Of a stretch of 64,000 nt of DNA, positions 23,083-36,034 are shown in pieces; position 1 is the first letter of the stretch; the number at the start of each line of letters is the position of its first letter. A program made the position numbers and the translations under genes. Where the stretch lies: the NCBI GenBank assembly GCA_016197205.1, contig JACPWG010000028.1, positions 1 through 64,000 of the forward strand. The letters run 5' to 3'. The notes below the pieces were generated by a model. The model saw nothing but the letters and a program-made list of their open reading frames with translations, did not search any database and was not told the origin of the DNA. The stretch comes from Planctomycetota bacterium. Its GTDB lineage: Bacteria > Planctomycetota > MHYJ01 > WSZJ01 > JACPWG01.

Positions 23083-26000
23083 GAAAGATTTGGAGCTTCC
23101 GGCTGACGCCCCTCCGCAAGAGCAGCCAGCTCGATCCCCAGCCGTTGGAAGGAGGCCGCGAGTTCCGCAGCCAGCGGCCCGGCTCCGAGCAGCTCCCCCG
23201 CGCCCCCCATCGTCTCCAGCCGCGCGCACTGCTCCACGACCCCTTGGGCGGCGAAGATGGACACGGCCCCCTTGAGGGCGTGCGCCGCCTGGCGGAGGGC
23301 CTGCCCGTCCCCGCGGGCTGCCGCGTCGCCGATCGCGGCGAGCCGGACCGGGCCGTCCTCCAGGCAGACGCGGGCCAGCCTCCCTGCGAGCCGGAGGTCC
23401 CCTCCCACGCGGTCGAGCAGGGCCGCCCGGTCGATCATCGACGCCGGCCCGGGCCGCGGAGGCCCCCCGGCTTCGGTCGCCGGCGGGGACGGCGGCTCCG
23501 ATCCCACGGGGGACGGCATGCCCGCGCCGACCGCGGGTTCCAGGCCGTGCGTGCGCGCTCGACCGGAGCCCGAGCGACGTTCCGGCCCGAGCAGGAACCT
23601 CTCCAGCATGTACAGCAACTGCTCCCGCCGGATCGGCTTCGCCAGGAATTCATCCATCCCGGCAGCCAGACACCTCTCCCGCTCCCCCGGCAATGCGGAG
23701 GCGGTCATCGCCACGATCGGCACCCGCGGCTCCGCAGCCCCGCGCCTTCGAAGCTCCCGCGTCGCCTCGTACCCATCCATCTCCGGCATGTGGCAATCCA
23801 TGAGCACCAGGTCGTAGGGAGCGCGGTCGAGCGCCTCCACAGCCTCGAGGCCGTTGCCCACGGCGTCCGCGCGCAGACCCAGGCGTTCCAGCAACGCCAC
23901 GGCCAGCCGCTGGTTCACGGCATTGTCCTCGGCCAGGAGGATCCGGAAAGGGACCGGCCCGGCAAACGGCCTTTCGCGCGTGACGTCCGACGGCGCGTGC
24001 CCTCGAGAGGGGTCCGTTCCCCCCGCGAGCAGTCCGGTCAGGCATTCCCAGAGGCGCGCGCGCCGGACCGGCTTGGGCAGCGTGGCCGCCACCCCAAGGT
24101 CGGCCGGCAGCGCCGCTCCCCCGCCGGACGTGAGCAGCACGATCGGCACGCCGGCCAGCGCCGCGTCCCCGCGGAGGGCCCGCGCCACGTCCACCCCGTC
24201 CAGGCCGGGAAGATGCATGTCCAGGAGGATCACCGCCGGCAGCCTGCCGACCCGCGCCGCTTCGCGCAGCAGCGCCAGCGCCGGCTCCCCGCCCGCGGCC
24301 TCCTCCCCCTTCATCCCCCAGGACGAGAGAAGGGTCGTGAGGATCTTCCGATTCATCTCGTGGTCGTCCACCACGAGAGCGCGCAGCCCCACGAGGTTCA
24401 GACGAGGGGAAGGGCGCATGGTGGCGTCCGCGCTCGTCCGGCCGAAACGGGCGGTGAACCAAAAGGTGCTCCCCTTCCCCGGCTCGCTCTCCAGGCCGAT
24501 CTCGCCCCCCATGAGCGACACCAGCCGCTTCGAGATGGCGAGCCCGAGCCCTGTCCCCCCGAAGCGGCGAGCGATGGTTTCGTCGGCCTGCGAGAAGCGC
24601 TCGAACAGCCGCGCACGCGCCTCGGCCGGGATCCCCGGCCCGGTGTCGCGGACCTCGAACCGCGCGAGGACGTCCCCCTCCGTCCGCTTCTCCGGACGAA
24701 CCGAGACCACGACCTCCCCTGCGGTGGTGAACTTGACGGCGTTCGACAGCAGGTTCAACAGGACCTGTCGGAGCCGGCCCGCATCCCCGCGCAGCCGCCG
24801 TGGCAGGTCCGGCTCGATCGCGGCTGCCAGCTCCAGCCCCTTCTGCCTCGCCTGGGTCAAGACGAAATCAAGCGCATCCTCCACGACGCTCTCGACGTCG
24901 AACTCCGCCGTCTCCAGTTCGAGCCTGCCGGCCTCCACCTTCGACAGGTCGAGGAGGTCATTGACGAGAGCGAGGAGCGCCTCGCCGCACCCGCGCACGG
25001 TTTGCGCGTAGTCCCGCTGTTCCGCGCTCAGGGCGGTATCCAGGAGGAGGCCCGACATCCCGATCACGCCGTTCAGCGGCGTGCGCAGCTCGTGGCTCAT
25101 GCCGGCCAGGAATTCGGATTTCGCGCGCGTGGCGGCCTCGGCGGCGACCAGGGCTTCCCGCAGTTCCCGCTCGGCCCGGGCCGTGGCGCTGACATCGAGG
25201 AAGGCGGCGATCGCGAATTCGACGCGGCCGGCTGCGTCGCGAACGGGCCGGGCCGTGACGTGGAGCGCGGCCCGCCCTTCGGGCCGCCGGATTTCCAGGT
25301 CCCTTGCCTCGGCCACCTCACCCCCGAGCGCGCGCACGATCGGCATGCGCTCCGCCGGATACGGAAGGTCCGTGCCTGCCACGCAGACGGCGTAGACTTC
25401 GGCGAGGCGGTCGAGGCCGGCCTCGGCGACGATCCCCTTGCCGAGGATCTCCTGCGCCGCGCGGTTCGCGTAGTAGGGCATCCCCGACCTGTCGAGCACG
25501 AAGATGCCGACCGGCACGGCCTCCAGAAAGAGGAAGAGCCGACCTTCGGTCACACGAAGGGCCTCCTGCTGCAGCGCCTCGAGCCGGGCGTGGAATTCCG
25601 CGCCGGCCCGGGCGTGTCGGGCGACGGCCCGCAGCGCGGCGAAGAGGAGGGCGCTGGTCAGGCCCAGCCAGACCAGGTGCAGCGCGGTCGTCCCGAGCAC
25701 GCCGTGCTCCGTGCCGTAGAGCGACTCCGGCCACCAGCCTCCCCGGAGGAGGTGGTCCGCGGCCGACACCGCCACAGCCGTGAGGAGCACGCCTTCGTCG
25801 CGATACGAGGCGAGGAGGGCGAGGGACAAAAGCACATGGTTATGGACATCGAGCCGCCCGGCGGCGAGGTGGATGAAGAGCGCTCCCCAGAGGGCCTGGG
25901 CGATCGCGACCAGATGCCGGGTGAGGCCCGCGTCGGGCCGCTTGCGGATCGGCGCGAGCGGCGCCAAGGACAGGATGCCGCCCAAAAAAAGCGCAGTCCA

Positions 26001-28100: not shown

Positions 28101-28386
28101 CTACCTGCCAGGCCCGTTTTCTCTCGCCTCGCTCAGGGTCTCCACGAATTCGGCGATGATGCTCAGTACATCCTCTTCCTGCCCATTGAAAACCATCGGC
28201 TGGTGGCTCGGGTTTGTAGTATCGGGACGCAGGACCACGCCCGCATGGCGCCACTCACCTACTGGCTCCTGGACCCTCGTGCCCTCGGACGCTCCGCTCG
28301 AGTGCGGGGAGGTAGAACCCGCGCAGCCGATCATCGGATGCGCCGTAGCTGATTTGCCAGGCGTAGCTGGGGAGGAGGAGTGGCAC
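28101..28386 (-). pseudogene. remnant of a PLD-domain helicase-type protein
   Basis: Two coding scraps in different frames. GTG 28386 opens VPLLLPSYAWQISYGASDD then RLRGFYLPALERSVR, which matches the start of large defence-type proteins joining a phospholipase-D-like nuclease domain to a DEAD/SNF2 helicase (their N-termini read ...YGxxDDxLxxFYIPALxxSVRYDRxTGFFS). The frame breaks at once and stops at 28255. The other frame carries EWRHAGVVLRPDTTNPSHQP then MVFNGQEEDVLSIIAEFVE, stopping at 28101, which looks like a genuine C-terminus. So a gene of perhaps 1000 codons has been reduced to its two ends by a large deletion. It lies directly downstream of the PIN gene. The family assignment rests on memory of the N-terminal pattern. 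Confidence 0.5.
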
Positions 28387-28426
28387 GCGAGCACCTCCCC
28401 GACGAACAGTGGATGCGCCGGAGGGG

Positions 28427-28900
28427 CTACGGTGGCGGAGGGATTTCGGTCCAATCGCGCACGAGGACGTAGGGGGCAAGGTGCTTGCGGTTCCCCGTTA
28501 CGACTGTCCCTCCCGCTTCTTCGGCCTGCGCGACAAGGATCATGTCGCCGTCGAGCGCGGCGTTTGGCGCCGTGGGCCGGCCGTCATGCCGCGCCCGGGC
28601 CCACAGCGCGGCCGCCCGCCGGAGCGTCTCCGTTCGAATCGGGAGGTAATCCAGCCAGGTCCCGAGCTGGTCGAGCCGTTCCAGGCTCGGGGTCGTCAGT
28701 CCCCCCGCTCGCAGCGAAAGCTGGAGCAACTTTCGTCGCAGCTCATAGTCCGCGATCTCTGGAAGGATCACGCGGTGTTCCTCGCCGCCCGCGCGTGCCG
28801 GGTCCAGGATCGCCGAGAGCCATGCGGCCACGGGACGGCTCTGCTCCGCGCTGGAATGGCAGAGCAGCCCCAAGACGCCGGTGTCGAGGACCAACCTCAT
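28427..28900 (-). CDS. PIN-domain nuclease (VapC-like)
   Basis: 157-aa PIN-fold protein, probably a metal-dependent RNase. Acidic residues in the expected places: D6 (MRLVLDTG), E48 (LPEIADYE), D117/D119 (ALDGDMILVAQA), and the terminal VVTGNRKHL with T135 and N137. The length fits VapC-like toxins and the PIN proteins of accessory islands. ATG 28900 overlaps the stop of the gene upstream (ATGA), so the two are translated as a pair; the upstream 119-aa protein sits where an antitoxin would be but shows no known antitoxin fold. It could be a toxin or a nuclease subunit of the larger defence module around it. Confidence 0.85.
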   Translation of the reverse strand: MRLVLDTGVLGLLCHSSAEQSRPVAAWLSAILDPARAGGEEHRVILPEIADYELRRKLLQLSLRAGGLTTPSLERLDQLGTWLDYLPIRTETLRRAAALWARARHDGRPTAPNAALDGDMILVAQAEEAGGTVVTGNRKHLAPYVLVRDWTEIPPPP

Positions 28901-29256
28901 TCCCCTTCCTCGCGACAGCTCATCCCGGGATCGGCCATCCCATCAAGGGCGCGGAGGGTCCGTTCGTCGTCGCCTCCGGGCTCCTGCATCCACTGTCGGA
29001 GGAGGTCGGCCGCCATGCGATAGCGTGTCCGCCGATCCGGACGCGGGTTAGGCTCAAGAACGGAATAGACACAGGCTGCGGGCCGCGTGACACCCGCGAG
29101 ATCGCTCCAGAAGCGTCCCTGAAACAGCGGTTCCGCCCCTTCCAGGACGCTTCCCCCGGTCACGAAGACCCGGTACTCGAAGGCGGACTGTCCCCCAGGG
29201 GCCTGCCCAGGCGGCCCTGCGGGTGCGTGTTTTTTTGGGTCGATCACGGTGATCAT
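28897..29256 (-). CDS. hypothetical protein between PIN and TIGR04255 genes
   Basis: 119 aa, unrecognised. It begins MITVIDPKKHAPAGPPGQAP and has a central beta-like part (FEYRVFVTGGSVLEGAEPLF, GRFWSDLAGVTRPAACVYSV) and a helical tail (RYRMAADLLRQWMQEPGGDD). No membrane segment and no DNA-binding motif visible. It overlaps the TIGR04255 stop at its start and the PIN start at its end (4 bp each), so it is in the middle of a tightly coupled trio. By position it could be an antitoxin or adaptor for the PIN nuclease, which is inference only. Confidence 0.65.
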   Translation of the reverse strand: MITVIDPKKHAPAGPPGQAPGGQSAFEYRVFVTGGSVLEGAEPLFQGRFWSDLAGVTRPAACVYSVLEPNPRPDRRTRYRMAADLLRQWMQEPGGDDERTLRALDGMADPGMSCREEGE

Positions 29257-30050
29257 GCACGACCCTCCCTCAGGCGGGTAAGGTAGCGTGGCGTCAGGGT
29301 CGAATCGAAGGCTGCCCAGATTCGGTCGTGGAGGCGATCCACCTCAGGATACAGGCAATCCCACCCGGATTGCAAGTCCGCCTCGACGATCGCGTCCAGG
29401 TCGAGCACGAATACCGGGCGCCCTTCCCCGTCGGTACCGTCCGCGACGGTGACGACTAGGCGCAGACCGGGAAGAGGATTGTGCTCAAAGCGGGACAGAA
29501 AGTGGGAGCTGCACCCCAGGATCTTTCGAGGGTAGTGCTCGCTCTCTGCAAGCCATGCGGACAGCAGTTCGTCGGTGCCGGCCTTCGGAAGGTGATTGAT
29601 GTATCGGAGGCCGACGCGATGCACGGTCGCCTCGCCCAGAACCGCCAGCAGGTGGCTCCACCCGGCCTTCAGGTCTTCACCGAAACGACCCCATCCAGGG
29701 TACGGGCTCAGCTCGTTGACGGTGAACACACCGGGGGCGAGCTGCACTTGGTGCGCCCGCTCTCGGTGCAGGTAGCGCATTCGTAGGATCGGAGGGACGA
29801 CCCGGTGTTCGAGTCCCCGCGGGCTCAGGGTCGCGCCGACGGCGACGATCTGTTCCGGCTCCATGCGAGGAAATTCCGCCTGAATTCGCTGGAACAGGTC
29901 TCCGTACCATCGGGGGACCCAACTTCGGCCCTCGGGTAGCCGGAAGTGGACCTCGCAGATCGCCTCCACCGCGGTCGGATGCGAAAAGGCCGGATGGGCC
30001 AGGGGCGCCCCAGTCGATGGCTCCGACGGGGACGGGACGGGATCAGTCAT
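29253..30050 (-). CDS. TIGR04255 family protein
   Basis: 265 aa. Matches the pattern of TIGR04255 proteins: an N-terminal AFSHPTAVEAICEVHFRLP, then VVPPILRMRYLHRE and VTVNELSPY-like strand (GVFTVNELSPYPGWGRF), VHRVGLRYINHLPKA, and a C-terminal DLDAIVEADLQSGW with a helical LHDRIWAAFDSTLTPRYL. Function unknown; family members are patchily distributed in accessory regions and often paired with a second gene. ATG 30050 overlaps the preceding methylase remnant by 8 bp, and the stop overlaps the next start by 4 bp. Cytosolic by appearance. Confidence 0.8.
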   Translation of the reverse strand: MTDPVPSPSEPSTGAPLAHPAFSHPTAVEAICEVHFRLPEGRSWVPRWYGDLFQRIQAEFPRMEPEQIVAVGATLSPRGLEHRVVPPILRMRYLHRERAHQVQLAPGVFTVNELSPYPGWGRFGEDLKAGWSHLLAVLGEATVHRVGLRYINHLPKAGTDELLSAWLAESEHYPRKILGCSSHFLSRFEHNPLPGLRLVVTVADGTDGEGRPVFVLDLDAIVEADLQSGWDCLYPEVDRLHDRIWAAFDSTLTPRYLTRLREGRA

Positions 30051-30897
30051 CGCTTTCCTCCGTGTCCTCCTCGTCGTCGACCTCCTCTTCCTTCGAACGG
30101 CCGCCGAGCATGGGTATTTCAAGTTGCTTCGCCCGGGCCTCCGGCAGCTCCTCCGGCGGGGTCGCGAGGTCGTCGAAGAACGCGAGCCGCAGGGCCTCGA
30201 GCACCTCCGCCTCCGGACAGACGAACTTCCCCTTCAGCCGCGCACGCGGAATCGCGTTGAGGAGCGCCTGGAGCGTGGACCTGAAGGTGGCGTCCTTGAG
30301 GAGACGGCTACGCTGCAGGAAGGCCTTGCAGGCCGGTGGCCCGTCCTCTTGGTAGACGAGCATTGCCGTGTGGACGGCGTCGATCCAGTATCTGAAGACC
30401 TCCTTCTCCGGATCCACCACGTCGCGCTTCCGACGCGCCCCGGGCTCTTGAAGCCGGACAGAGGAGCCCTTCTTGGCCACCAGCCGCTTTTCGCCGATCA
30501 CCTGTTTTTCGAGGTCGAGGCCGAGGGCCAAGGCCAGTTTGCGGGCCTCGTCGGCCGGGAATTCCGCGGCCCGCAAGGCATCCCACGCAATCAGGTACCA
30601 GTCCGTGATCGGGTCGAACTGGACGGCTCGGCCGAGCAGGAGGCCCTGCTTGCACAGAGAGAGTACCTCGGCGCGGGCGCGGTCGAGCGCGATCTCGGGG
30701 CGGAGCGGCCTCGGCTGTCCCGTGCGGTCGTCGACCTCGCTGGTGAGCACGGGCCAGTTCTCGGAGAGGATGGCGAGGGTCGGGCCGAAGGTGGCGATGT
30801 AGAGATCGACCCCGCGGATCCTGTCCGAGAGATCAGGTGATATACGTAGTGAGAAAACCCACGCGGGAGCGATTCTAGCCTTGGCCGGAGCATGGCG
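30043..30897 (-). pseudogene. C-terminal remnant of a DUF1156-type adenine DNA methylase
   Basis: The frame encodes SDRIRGVDLYIATFGPTLAI, then GLLLGRAVQFDPITDWYLIA and WDALRAAEFPADEARKLALA, followed by DAVHTAMLVYQEDGPPACK and a Lys/Glu-rich tail to 30043. This is the C-terminal third of DUF1156 methylases (full length about 900-1000 aa); the catalytic NPPF/NPPY and SAM-binding parts are missing. No ATG/GTG/TTG precedes GTG 30750 although family similarity extends up to about 30845, and an in-frame TGA stands at 30898-30900. So the gene is truncated at its 5' end. DUF1156 methylases travel with helicase and nuclease genes in predicted anti-phage modules, which fits the genes downstream. The 235-aa product from 30750 could still be made. 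Confidence 0.65.
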
Positions 30898-30946
30898 TCA
30901 AGACTTTGGGCGGACCGAGGGATGCGCGAAGGGGGCGGTCCACCCG

Positions 30947-33659
30947 CTATCGGCGATTGACGAAGCCTGGGGGCGGCGCCTTCCAGTCGTCGGGCGTGCA
31001 CTTCGGCTTTTCCGGCCACTTCGCGGCCATCGACTTGACAACGCTCCCAGCCTGTTCTTCTTGCGCCTTCAGAAGAGACGCAACTGGGAGTATGACATCC
31101 GCGGCCAGGAGCAGGTCCGGCCCCCGAAGGCGTGCGATCTCCTTTCGCTCGCGGTGCCGCGGAGTCCAGGCGAACGATCCGCCCGGGACACCGTGGTTGG
31201 TCAGGACGACGTTGATGTAGTTCTCGTAGGCCGGCACCCAGGTCATCGCGTCGAACAAGTCGACGTCCTGGTTGTAGGCCGGCAGAGGGACCGATGAGGC
31301 CAACGCCCTGTTTCTCCCCGGTACGTGAGGCCTTGAGCGCATCGAGAAGCATGCTCAGCACGATTCGCGTAGGGAGCGGGAGGCCAGGGGTCTGCCATGG
31401 CGTGATGGGCCACTGGCACAGGTCGGTGGATCCCACGGGGTCGCCCCAGAGCAAGCGGTACAGGGTCGGACCGGGTGCCTCCGCGTCTGATGCACGGTTT
31501 TTCGATGCTCCAGAAGGGTGAGCGCCTGCGCCGGAGAGCGCCAGCCGTCGGACTCGCCCATAGGTGGAGAGGCGCAGACTTCGTTCCAGCCACTCGGAGG
31601 GCCCCCCAGCGCGGCTTGTCCAGGAAAGCGACGGCCACTCCTTCTCGGCCACGGCAGCCCAGGCTGCGGCCAGTTCGCCAGGGAGTGTGAGAAGGATCGA
31701 AGTCGCTTCAGCGACACAGAGGCACTCTGCGCCTTCGCGAGAGGAAAGGTCCACAGGGGCACTCCCGTAGGCCCGACCCAGGGCAACTGCGAGGACCTTG
31801 CGCTCCTCTTTCAGGTCCTGCCCGGCGTCGCGCTCTCCGGCCCCATCAGGTTTGGCGAGTCCTCGTCCGGCGAGGGACAACAGTGCCCAACAGGGAAGGG
31901 CCTTTGCGGTATCTGGAGGAGTGGACGCCAGGGCCCCTGCTGAGCGCAGTAGCGTGCGGATCCGACGGAAGAATCCGAACAGCACGGGTGTATCGGGGAG
32001 GAGCAACCCGTCGGAGCCTCTCTCCTCGCCGAGCATCTTCAGGCGAACATCCCCTCCGACAGGCAGGAGCATGGGGAGTAGCTCGCCGGCGGACCTGCTC
32101 GCGAGGACCGCCACGGCGAGGGCCTGACGCTCCTCCGGGGGGAGGCCTTCCCCGCTGCTTGATGTCTCTCCGTAGAGAACGCCGGCCCACCTGTCCAATC
32201 GGGCGAGCCATGCCAGAACCGCAGGGATCCGAGCCTCGGCCAGTGCTCGATAGGTCCATTTCTCCGGACGCCAGCGATTGTGGGCCGCTGCTCGGAGGTC
32301 GTGCAGTGCGCGAGCGATTGCGAGCCAGAGCTCACACCGATGCCGGCTCGCGGCATGCCGGGCGATCGCGTCGGCACGGAGCTTCAGCACGGCCGCACCA
32401 AGGTTTGCGGCGGTTGCGGGCCAGCACTCGGGCTTCCAAGGACTGTCCTCTGGCCACTCCTGAACCCAACTGCCGCTCGACTTCGGCGAGCAACTGATCA
32501 ATCCGAGGATCGATGAAAACCAGTCCTCTGCGACCTTGTTCTCCTCCTTCCATCGCGCCTTCACGGTACCGGACGGACGTCGCACCGCTGCCTGAACAAC
32601 CGCTCGCCACAGGCTGGACTTCCATGGCGCCTCCTCCAAGGCGTGGCGGATCGACTGGCGGATCGCCGAGAGATCCACCTGCTGGCGCTCCGGGTCGCCC
32701 TCCGGGATCCACGCCTTGGCAAGGCGATTCGCCGCGAAGGCCAGGCGCGAATCCTTCTTCACCTGTCCATCTTCAAGATTCATGCGAGCGAGACCATGCA
32801 GGTCGACCAGCCTCTGCCGGGCGCCGTCCCCGAAGCGCTGAAGCAGGCCCTCGACGCGAAGATCGCTCATCCGCTCCACCAGGTAGGTGACGAAATGGCC
32901 GAGGCGGCCCCGCCGAATTCCATCCGAGTCCAGGCTCCTCCGATGGCGCTTCCTGTCGTCTTCGCTCAACGTGCTCCACCAAGCGTCCAATGACGCCGGG
33001 TGGCTTCTCGGAAGCTCCGACACCGTGATTCCTTCGCAGCCCGGGCACTTGATTTTCTCGAGCGGAGTCGCCCTGTCCCCATCGACTCCCGGCGACTTCG
33101 AGTACTGCGCTTCAAGGTACAACCGGAGGACCTTCTCCAGGGACGGGGGCTCGACCTTGGACCAGTTGATCTGCAGGTTGCTCTGTGTTGGTTCGGCCGC
33201 GAGCCCGGCTACGGTAGCTTCTCCAGGTGCGGCGATGCCGGAGCAGACGACGTCTACCAGCCTGAGCAAGGAGGGCACATCGTTCGAGAGGAGAATCATG
33301 TCGTCCGCAAAGCGCAGAAATGCGCCATGGCCACGGCTTGCGTTCTCGTTCAGATGGGACGCAACCGCCTGGTCAAGAGTGAGGAGGTACGCGTTGCACA
33401 GGAGGCCCGAGATCGCGAGGCCTGTTGGCAGACCGGGATGTCCGGCGCCGTCGCCGTACGGGAGCTTCCACTCCAGTTTGCGATGCGGCGGTTTTGCGTG
33501 GGGTGGACACCAGAGGTCGTTGGGCTCGCTCTCATGCCCACGCGGAAGCTCCGCGTATCGAACGGCGGCGAGGTGGTCACAGAGCAAATCCACAAGGGCC
33601 TTCCGCCCGAGTTTGGGCAGCAACGCCAAACCCGATCGCACGGGAAACCGGATGGCCAA
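30947..33659 (-). pseudogene. reverse transcriptase with long helical C-terminus, frameshifted
   Basis: From TTG 33659 the frame shows RT motifs: KLEWKLPYGDG, GHPGLPTGLAISGLLCNAYL (motif B), and the catalytic box FLRFADDMILLSND near residues 115-127 (FADD), then QINWSKVEPP. About 600 residues of Trp/Leu-rich helical sequence follow, with a KIKCPGCEG zinc-like pair. The motif-A aspartate is not in this frame: a TGA closes the frame at 33669-33671, and just above, in another frame, SGQVVSIDAHHAHRLR (about 33720-33680) looks like a displaced motif A. At the other end coding sense leaves the frame after ..KASRTGEKQGVG near 31300 and continues in the next frame as LPAYNQDVDLFDAMTWVPAY down to PPPGFVNRR, stop 30947. 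Two frameshifts thus separate a protein of about 915 aa. It resembles the unknown-group RTs used in phage defence (RT plus alpha-repeat domain) more than group II intron RTs, as no maturase or HNH part is seen. Confidence 0.65.
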
Positions 33660-33848
33660 CCGCTGGTTTCAAGGCGTCAGCGGAGCCGGTGTGCGTGATG
33701 AGCATCGATGCTGACCACCTGTCCGGAGGATCCGTCGAGTAGGCTGCGGATGAGCGCTGGCCATGCGTCGCATGCCGGCACGCGCCGCGCGCGGGCACGA
33801 CGGCGCTCTCGCCCGACGTGCACGGCGCGGGAACGGCGCCGCGACGCG

Positions 33849-35877: not shown

Positions 35878-36034
35878 CTTCAGCTCGTCTCTTCGTCCCT
35901 TCGGCGTCTTCAGCGTCTTCGGTGGCTCGTCTCTTCGTCCCTTCGGCGTATTCAGCGTCTTCGGTGGCTCGTCCCTCCGTCGCTCCGTCTCTCGGTCTCT
36001 CCGTCTCCCCATCTCCTCGGCGTCTACGGTGGCT
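35878..36034. repeat. 42-bp tandem repeat and CTCCGTCTC run beside secA
   Basis: A 42-bp unit (CTCGTCTCTTCGTCCCTTCG, then GCGTCTTCAGCGTCTTCGGTGG) occurs at 35884-35925 and 35926-35967 with one base difference and a partial third copy from 35968. It is followed by CTCCGTCTCTCGGTCTCTCC-type runs and ends in GGCGTCTACGGTGGCTACT, the complement of the motif at the very left of the window. The secA stop codon is 2 bp further on. Confidence 0.65.

Follow-up and report, generated by a model that had tools for sequence, protein, structure and literature searches.

Closest described systems

Hma was named in PMC8565338 and was grouped with the BREX-related (BR) systems in PMC12839542, in which a PIN-endoRNase is listed among the rarer back-up effectors of BREX and BR systems. 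For the reverse transcriptase (RT)-nitrilase defence protein DRT1, the nitrilase domain was placed at residues 934–1229, with C1116 as the catalytic residue, and was proposed as the effector (PMC13275509). These statements come from the passages of the three papers that were used here.

Composition of the locus

In the window (the whole stretch of 64,000 nucleotides analyzed), remnants of both kinds of system were found on the minus strand, together with three whole genes. The parts are firmly identified. In the order of the minus strand, these are:

31257..33659, minus strand: RT region of a fused RT-nitrilase gene, remnant (match to protein P0036; PADLOC RT_UG6, E 3.1e-10; FADD kept)
30962..31285, minus strand: nitrilase part, C-terminal end, in another frame (match to P0036; PADLOC RTasNitrilase, E 1.3e-13)
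30043..30819, minus strand: C-terminal tail of an HmaB-type (DUF1156) DNA methylase (246-aa alignment with the methylase at locus L089, 68% identity)
29253..30050, minus strand: TIGR04255 gene, intact, 265 aa (NCBIfam TIGR04255, 99.4 bits, cut-off 30)
28897..29256, minus strand: 119-aa ORF, intact, predicted antitoxin of the PIN (4-bp overlap with each neighbour; weak C-terminal likeness)
28427..28900, minus strand: PIN nuclease gene, intact, 157 aa, predicted toxin (Pfam PF01850, E 1.8e-7, 32.2 bits, cut-off 23.6)
28285..28374, minus strand: start of a PLD/SNF2 helicase gene, ~30 codons (aligned with residues 4–33 of the L089 helicase, 63% identity over 30 aa, E 1.9e-6)
28101..28292, minus strand: C-terminal fragment of unsure origin (like Peptidase_S24-like tails of large restriction proteins)

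The gene set listed in an earlier note on this DNA (RT with FADD, DUF1156-type tail, TIGR04255, 119-aa ORF, and PIN) was thus confirmed on the minus strand. The overlaps of 4–8 bp that it gave for the middle genes were measured as 8 bp (methylase tail and TIGR04255), 4 bp (TIGR04255 and the 119-aa ORF), and 4 bp (the 119-aa ORF and PIN).

RT-nitrilase remnant

The RT piece retained its FADD motif at 33311–33300 and was free of stops and frame-intact over 2.27 kb. Its closest relatives were RT-nitrilase fusions of ~1300 aa (P0036, and the Corallococcus protein P0035) and ~880-aa RT proteins. With P0036, the nearest intact relative (34% identity, 94% of the query), the window aligned from 33524 to 31257 over residues 130–812, and the nitrilase end, at about 31285–30962, was 51% identical over 108 aa to residues 1195–1301. 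Residues 813–1194 of P0036 had no counterpart in the window: about 380 codons, comprising most of the nitrilase, were deleted. The N-terminal part of the RT gene was also lost; the earliest start was TTG 33659, with an in-frame stop at 33671–33669, and the RT profile match began only at position 176 of 263, so the RT domain is incomplete. The nearest PADLOC models were the same for the window and for P0036, namely RT_UG6 (profile positions 169–257 of 925 for the RT piece) and RTasNitrilase (positions 305–396 of 397, which is all that remains of this domain). Neither the complete RT domain nor the nitrilase with catalytic residues that define UG/Abi class 3 (DRT1-like) was present, and we infer that the RT-nitrilase gene of the window is dead. 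The RT ORF with a long C-terminus (33659–30591) that had been reported earlier is therefore RT only as far as about 31257, beyond which it is out of frame; the nitrilase end was absent from that list.

The island had also been regarded as RT-centred. This was not supported: when the 82 other TIGR04255 loci were searched in translation, the best 14 rows contained nothing better than E 2.8 for the RT's own part. One row at E 1e-6 corresponded to the out-of-frame end of the RT ORF, overlying the methylase. A search of 392 genomes with the RT_UG6 profile (E ≤ 1e-15) returned no match, and has no bearing on absence because the window's own RT was also missed and the control was without signal.

Hma/BREX-related remnant and its intact counterparts

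The alignment of the methylase tail with the L089 methylase covered about 30819–30082, and its reading frame was open and without stops; scanned alone, the tail matched none of the models of Pfam, NCBIfam, and PADLOC at E ≤ 1. Regarding the helicase, the remainder of the gene was missing. The earlier note had recognized two ends of a PLD/helicase protein here: the N-terminal end at 28374–28285 was substantiated, while the other piece (28292–28101), which had matches in 4 of 59 genomes including its own, resembled tails of large restriction proteins in its own and one related genome, according to the Pfam domains of the matched proteins. Among the matches listed, the L089 ATPase had no convincing match in the window between 27600 and 34600. 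Hma and BR systems combine a DUF499 ATPase, a DUF1156 N6-methylase, and a helicase; the window copy retained only the methylase tail and ~30 helicase codons.

The L089 locus (genome G339, of the same phylum) is the intact counterpart of this half of the locus, with the trio in the same slot: DUF499-DUF7680-methylase-TIGR04255-116 aa-PIN-PLD/SNF2 helicase. Apart from the methylase tail and the helicase start, TIGR04255 (40%) and PIN (44.5%) were identical to this extent with those of the window. The 150-aa gene of L089 encoded DUF7680 (2.6e-35), and stand-alone DUF3780, which marks BR type 2, was not found by Pfam among the L089 proteins scanned. The PLD/SNF2 helicase of the intact operon matched PADLOC PLD_Helicase (1.2e-65) and PbeA (4e-64), with Pfam PLDc_2 at only E 0.079.

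A second, intact Hma operon was encoded in the window's own genome (L041: HmaA-HEPN-HmaB-TIGR04255-84 aa-PIN-HmaC), with PADLOC matches to HmaA (2.4e-190), HmaB (2.6e-117), and HmaC (6.2e-101). A third locus, L068, had the order HmaA-TIGR04255-X-PIN-HmaB, with DUF499 downstream. In L041, L068, and L089, the sets of ATPase, methylase, and helicase were complete, the trio occupied three different positions, and the core gene after PIN opened −1 to 16 bp away, by the longest ORF. The survey of neighbours proposed in the earlier note thus revealed co-occurrence of the trio with the methylase, namely TIGR04255-X-PIN within these three intact DUF1156-methylase operons. Judged by the refuting condition set in that note, the RT seems to be independent of the methylase/PIN parts. 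Its suggestion of two defence systems joined by decay agrees with our data: an RT-nitrilase wreck and a Hma/BREX-related wreck. It is well supported that the locus is the ruin of two systems and not one RT-centred system.

The intact trio

All three genes of the trio were whole and all flanking genes were truncated, in line with the earlier view of TIGR04255-unknown-PIN as the intact part. No trio gene had lost its start, its stop, or its overlap, and each start was preceded by a purine-rich stretch. For TIGR04255, ATG 30050 and not the upstream TTG 30122 was taken as the start; the AlphaFold2 model of the protein had a pLDDT of 90.4, and a TBP-like/Med18-20 fold is no more than a candidate for it. 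Residues D6, E53, and D119 of PIN were common to all nine aligned PIN proteins.

The 119-aa protein had no relative among 5.8 billion proteins (only itself was matched) and no model in Pfam, NCBIfam, or PADLOC, antitoxin families included. Against a profile built on the C-terminal ends of five PIN-gene partners, the window left out, it scored 8.7 bits, which was equalled by 1 of 5000 shuffles; it was the top ORF of 3746 outside the training set, yet weakly so (E 0.3). For this protein, only the gene position and the weak C-terminal likeness recur in relatives. The recurrence of TIGR04255 with the 119-aa protein, which the earlier note had proposed to look for, was therefore found for the order of the trio and not for the 119-aa protein itself in the protein search.

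TIGR04255 modules in other genomes and replicons

Of 392 genomes from the phylum, 65 had a TIGR04255 match. The survey comprised 83 TIGR04255 loci with flanks, the window included, in which the genes behind TIGR04255 were classed by profiles. A third gene of six kinds was recognized in 67 loci: RVP-type (32), CDL-type (15), PIN (10), DUF7689 (5), HicA-like (3, a label resting on a weak Pfam match, E 0.11), and L107-type (2); RVP, CDL, and L107 are names coined in this analysis. The other 16 loci, including L086, where the contig ends, had no recognized third gene. The kinds of the second and third genes agreed in all 50 loci with both classed; in 17 of the 67, the window's included, the second gene was unclassed by any profile. 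In a quickly built tree for 82 TIGR04255 proteins, many forks of which are weak, the third-gene kind switches at least 13 times, the minimum for six kinds being 5.

An HmaB match (E ≤ 1e-30) was found in 50 of 392 genomes, corresponding to 57 places once rows were merged. TIGR04255 lay within about 6 kb of HmaB in four of these places, against about 0.03 expected under uniform placement and an assumed mean genome of 4.9 Mb, an expectation that ignores the clustering of defence genes in islands. At a fifth Hma-linked locus (L071), TIGR04255 adjoined an HmaC piece on a 3.6-kb contig. With the window left out, PIN was the third gene in three of five Hma-linked loci and in 6 of 77 others (Fisher p 0.008); the remaining two Hma-linked modules, L107 and L071, were not of the PIN kind. 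Trios were also present without Hma in the fetched flanks (L044, L045, L046, and L093). A single clade of the four Hma-linked PIN rows, window included, was rejected (p-AU 3.8e-5), as was one of all ten PIN rows (p-AU 5e-4); these groups were named after the tree was seen, with the Hma link and the PIN kind defined from outside it. The trio was likely taken up by Hma operons more than once.

The PIN of L089 matched 12 plasmid records. In the three plasmids opened (Pseudanabaena, Nostoc, and Calothrix), a gene of 94–137 aa was located directly upstream of PIN, and the TIGR04255 profile had no match in their 18-kb stretches; because all three show the pair alone, the PIN and its partner can exist without TIGR04255. 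On a Vibrio plasmid, the genes behind TIGR04255 were a hypothetical one and one for a zeta toxin; on a Crinalium plasmid, two hypothetical genes came next; and on a Thermus plasmid, TIGR04255 was located just downstream of CopG-VapC. Two viral contigs, L133 and L135, were judged by eye, and in both TIGR04255 precedes a CDL-like gene near lysis-type genes.

Proposed explanation and alternatives

We slightly favour the reading that an RT-nitrilase wreck lies beside the wreck of a Hma/BREX-related operon, whose intact TIGR04255-119 aa-PIN trio is a predicted toxin–antitoxin-type back-up effector for the case that the main machinery is hit. Observed here are the components, their breaks, and the trio in the same order and the same slot of an intact relative. 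The 119-aa protein would restrain the PIN RNase, and TIGR04255, the gene that these modules have in common, may act as a sensor, either of infection or of the condition of the Hma machinery, or may bridge the toxin pair to Hma; if the restraint failed, PIN would cleave RNA and the infected cell would be stopped. The trio was possibly retained, as an antitoxin lost first would free the toxin. Counted against this reading are the absence of relatives of the 119-aa protein among 5.8 billion proteins and its weak likeness to other partners, the two non-PIN modules among the five Hma-linked ones, and the trios without Hma. A wider proposal, which we put forward tentatively and rate somewhat below even chances, is that TIGR04255 is the constant sensor of three-gene conflict modules, in which the two downstream genes are exchanged together (PIN RNase, HicA-like, DUF7689, CDL, RVP, and others, each with its own partner), that Hma/BREX-related operons repeatedly plugged in the PIN version as a fail-safe, and that in the window the fail-safe outlived its system.

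Selection is only a possible reason for the survival of the trio because the RT and methylase remnants are also stop-free; luck in recent decay may also have left it intact. A few large deletions appear to have broken the flanks, all breaks seen being compatible with this, and the same observations would fit plain decay of a defence island, with all debris caught early and the trio whole by chance. The retained starts, stops, overlaps, and purine-rich stretches, the PIN residues D6, E53, and D119, and the truncation of every flanking gene argue against this reading, which we consider rather unlikely though worth serious account. Less probable still is a selfish or independent toxin–antitoxin-type module that settles in defence islands and renders no service to Hma. 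Trios without Hma nearby in genomes G003, G004, and G005 (L044–L046) and TIGR04255 modules on plasmids and in viral contigs are consistent with it, while the tight spacing in three slots of three Hma operons, the TIGR04255 lineages that do not form one clade, and the enrichment of TIGR04255 beside HmaB speak for a tie to Hma.

Broken joins from a mis-assembled metagenome contig are very improbable. The source genome consists of 197 contigs and is 90.84% complete, and the joins are known from the assembly, not from reads; however, for each of several distinct breaks in only 6 kb an error of its own would be needed, and a single 98-kb contig contains the whole stretch. A new composite system, with RT-nitrilase, methylase, TIGR04255, the 119-aa protein, PIN, and helicase acting jointly, is already disfavoured and deserves hardly any credence: adjacency and a common strand suggest it in the window only, whereas the RT is without its N-terminal part and most of its nitrilase, the translated search linked no RT part to other TIGR04255 loci beyond E 2.8 in its best 14 rows, and no RT was found in the fetched stretches of the intact trio-bearing operons.

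Significance

BREX-related systems were reported to have back-up effectors, in the passages cited above, and TIGR04255 is a concrete, testable candidate sensor of that layer because a conserved gene with interchangeable pairs sits inside such operons in several lineages. TIGR04255, DUF7680, and DUF7689 were unmentioned, and such three-gene modules undescribed, in the literature searched, which covered few of the subscription journals. If true, our reading would provide the first functional context for TIGR04255, a family described in its model as no more than sporadic, and the window would represent an example from nature in which a toxin-type module has survived its defence system.

Comparison with known systems

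Like the RT-nitrilase defence RTs DRT1/UG1, UG5, and UG6, in the parts of PMC13275509 and PMC8934634 used here, the window has an RT that carries FADD, followed by a long segment and by the end of a nitrilase; unlike them, it holds a remnant only, from which the N-terminal part is missing along with ~380 residues that include most of the nitrilase. With Hma and the DUF499-centred BR systems it shares the DUF1156 methylase tail and the PLD/SNF2 helicase start. The window copy is destroyed, while the intact copies carry the TIGR04255-X-PIN trio, unmentioned in the passages of PMC8565338 and PMC12839542 concerned, and L089 differs by DUF7680 and by the lack of DUF3780 according to Pfam.

As in VapBC-type (type II) toxin–antitoxin systems, the small gene of the window overlaps the PIN gene by 4 bp, the PIN domain (PF01850) keeps its conserved acidic residues (D6, E53, and D119), and pairs without a third gene occur on cyanobacterial plasmids. 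In contrast to them, the window has an additional conserved TIGR04255 in front, and its 119-aa protein matches no antitoxin model. With CreTA, the toxin–antitoxin RNAs guarding CRISPR-Cas, as described in the part of the literature seen, the trio shares the principle that a toxin module is coupled to an operon for defence; CreTA consists of RNAs under the control of the CRISPR effector, whereas the window encodes proteins with putative control by Hma.

TIGR04255 Modules in the Compared Loci

Two of the loci compared with the window, L048 and L049, both from genomes of the same class as the window's, are additional decayed TIGR04255 modules. The search matches revealed an inner TGA in each of their TIGR04255 copies; in the TIGR04255 tree, both copies cluster with that of L041, the intact Hma operon of the window's own genome.

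Pairs of large genes (~930–1020 aa each) directly preceded TIGR04255–RVP modules (RVP being one of our names for kinds of third gene) in relatives (L078 and L098), with gaps of 2–54 bp or one extra gene between pair and module. These pairs are possibly another kind of host operon.

On viral contigs L133 and L135, TIGR04255 and a CDL-like gene (CDL being another such name) were located close to lysis-type genes, as judged by eye; the vicinity of such genes is a usual site of prophage accessory genes. In Thermus brockianus plasmid pTB1 (L125), CopG–VapC was found upstream of TIGR04255, and the same stretch also carried an Argonaute-like gene and cas6.

Other Features of the Window

The tRNA call may be spurious, since it lies inside a long minus-strand ORF.

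35883–35981: tandem repeat, 42-bp unit, 2.4 copies, 94% matches, upstream of gene 35630–33849
23441–23522: tRNA-Pro (cgg) call, within minus-strand ORF 26261–23079

Fragment 28292–28101 (minus strand) was similar to the Peptidase_S24-like domains forming the C-terminal ends of HsdR-type and Eco57I-type restriction proteins at L145, L146, and L147, two of which are encoded in the window's genome:

L146: C142, restriction protein with Peptidase_S24-like end
L147: C149, restriction protein with Peptidase_S24-like end
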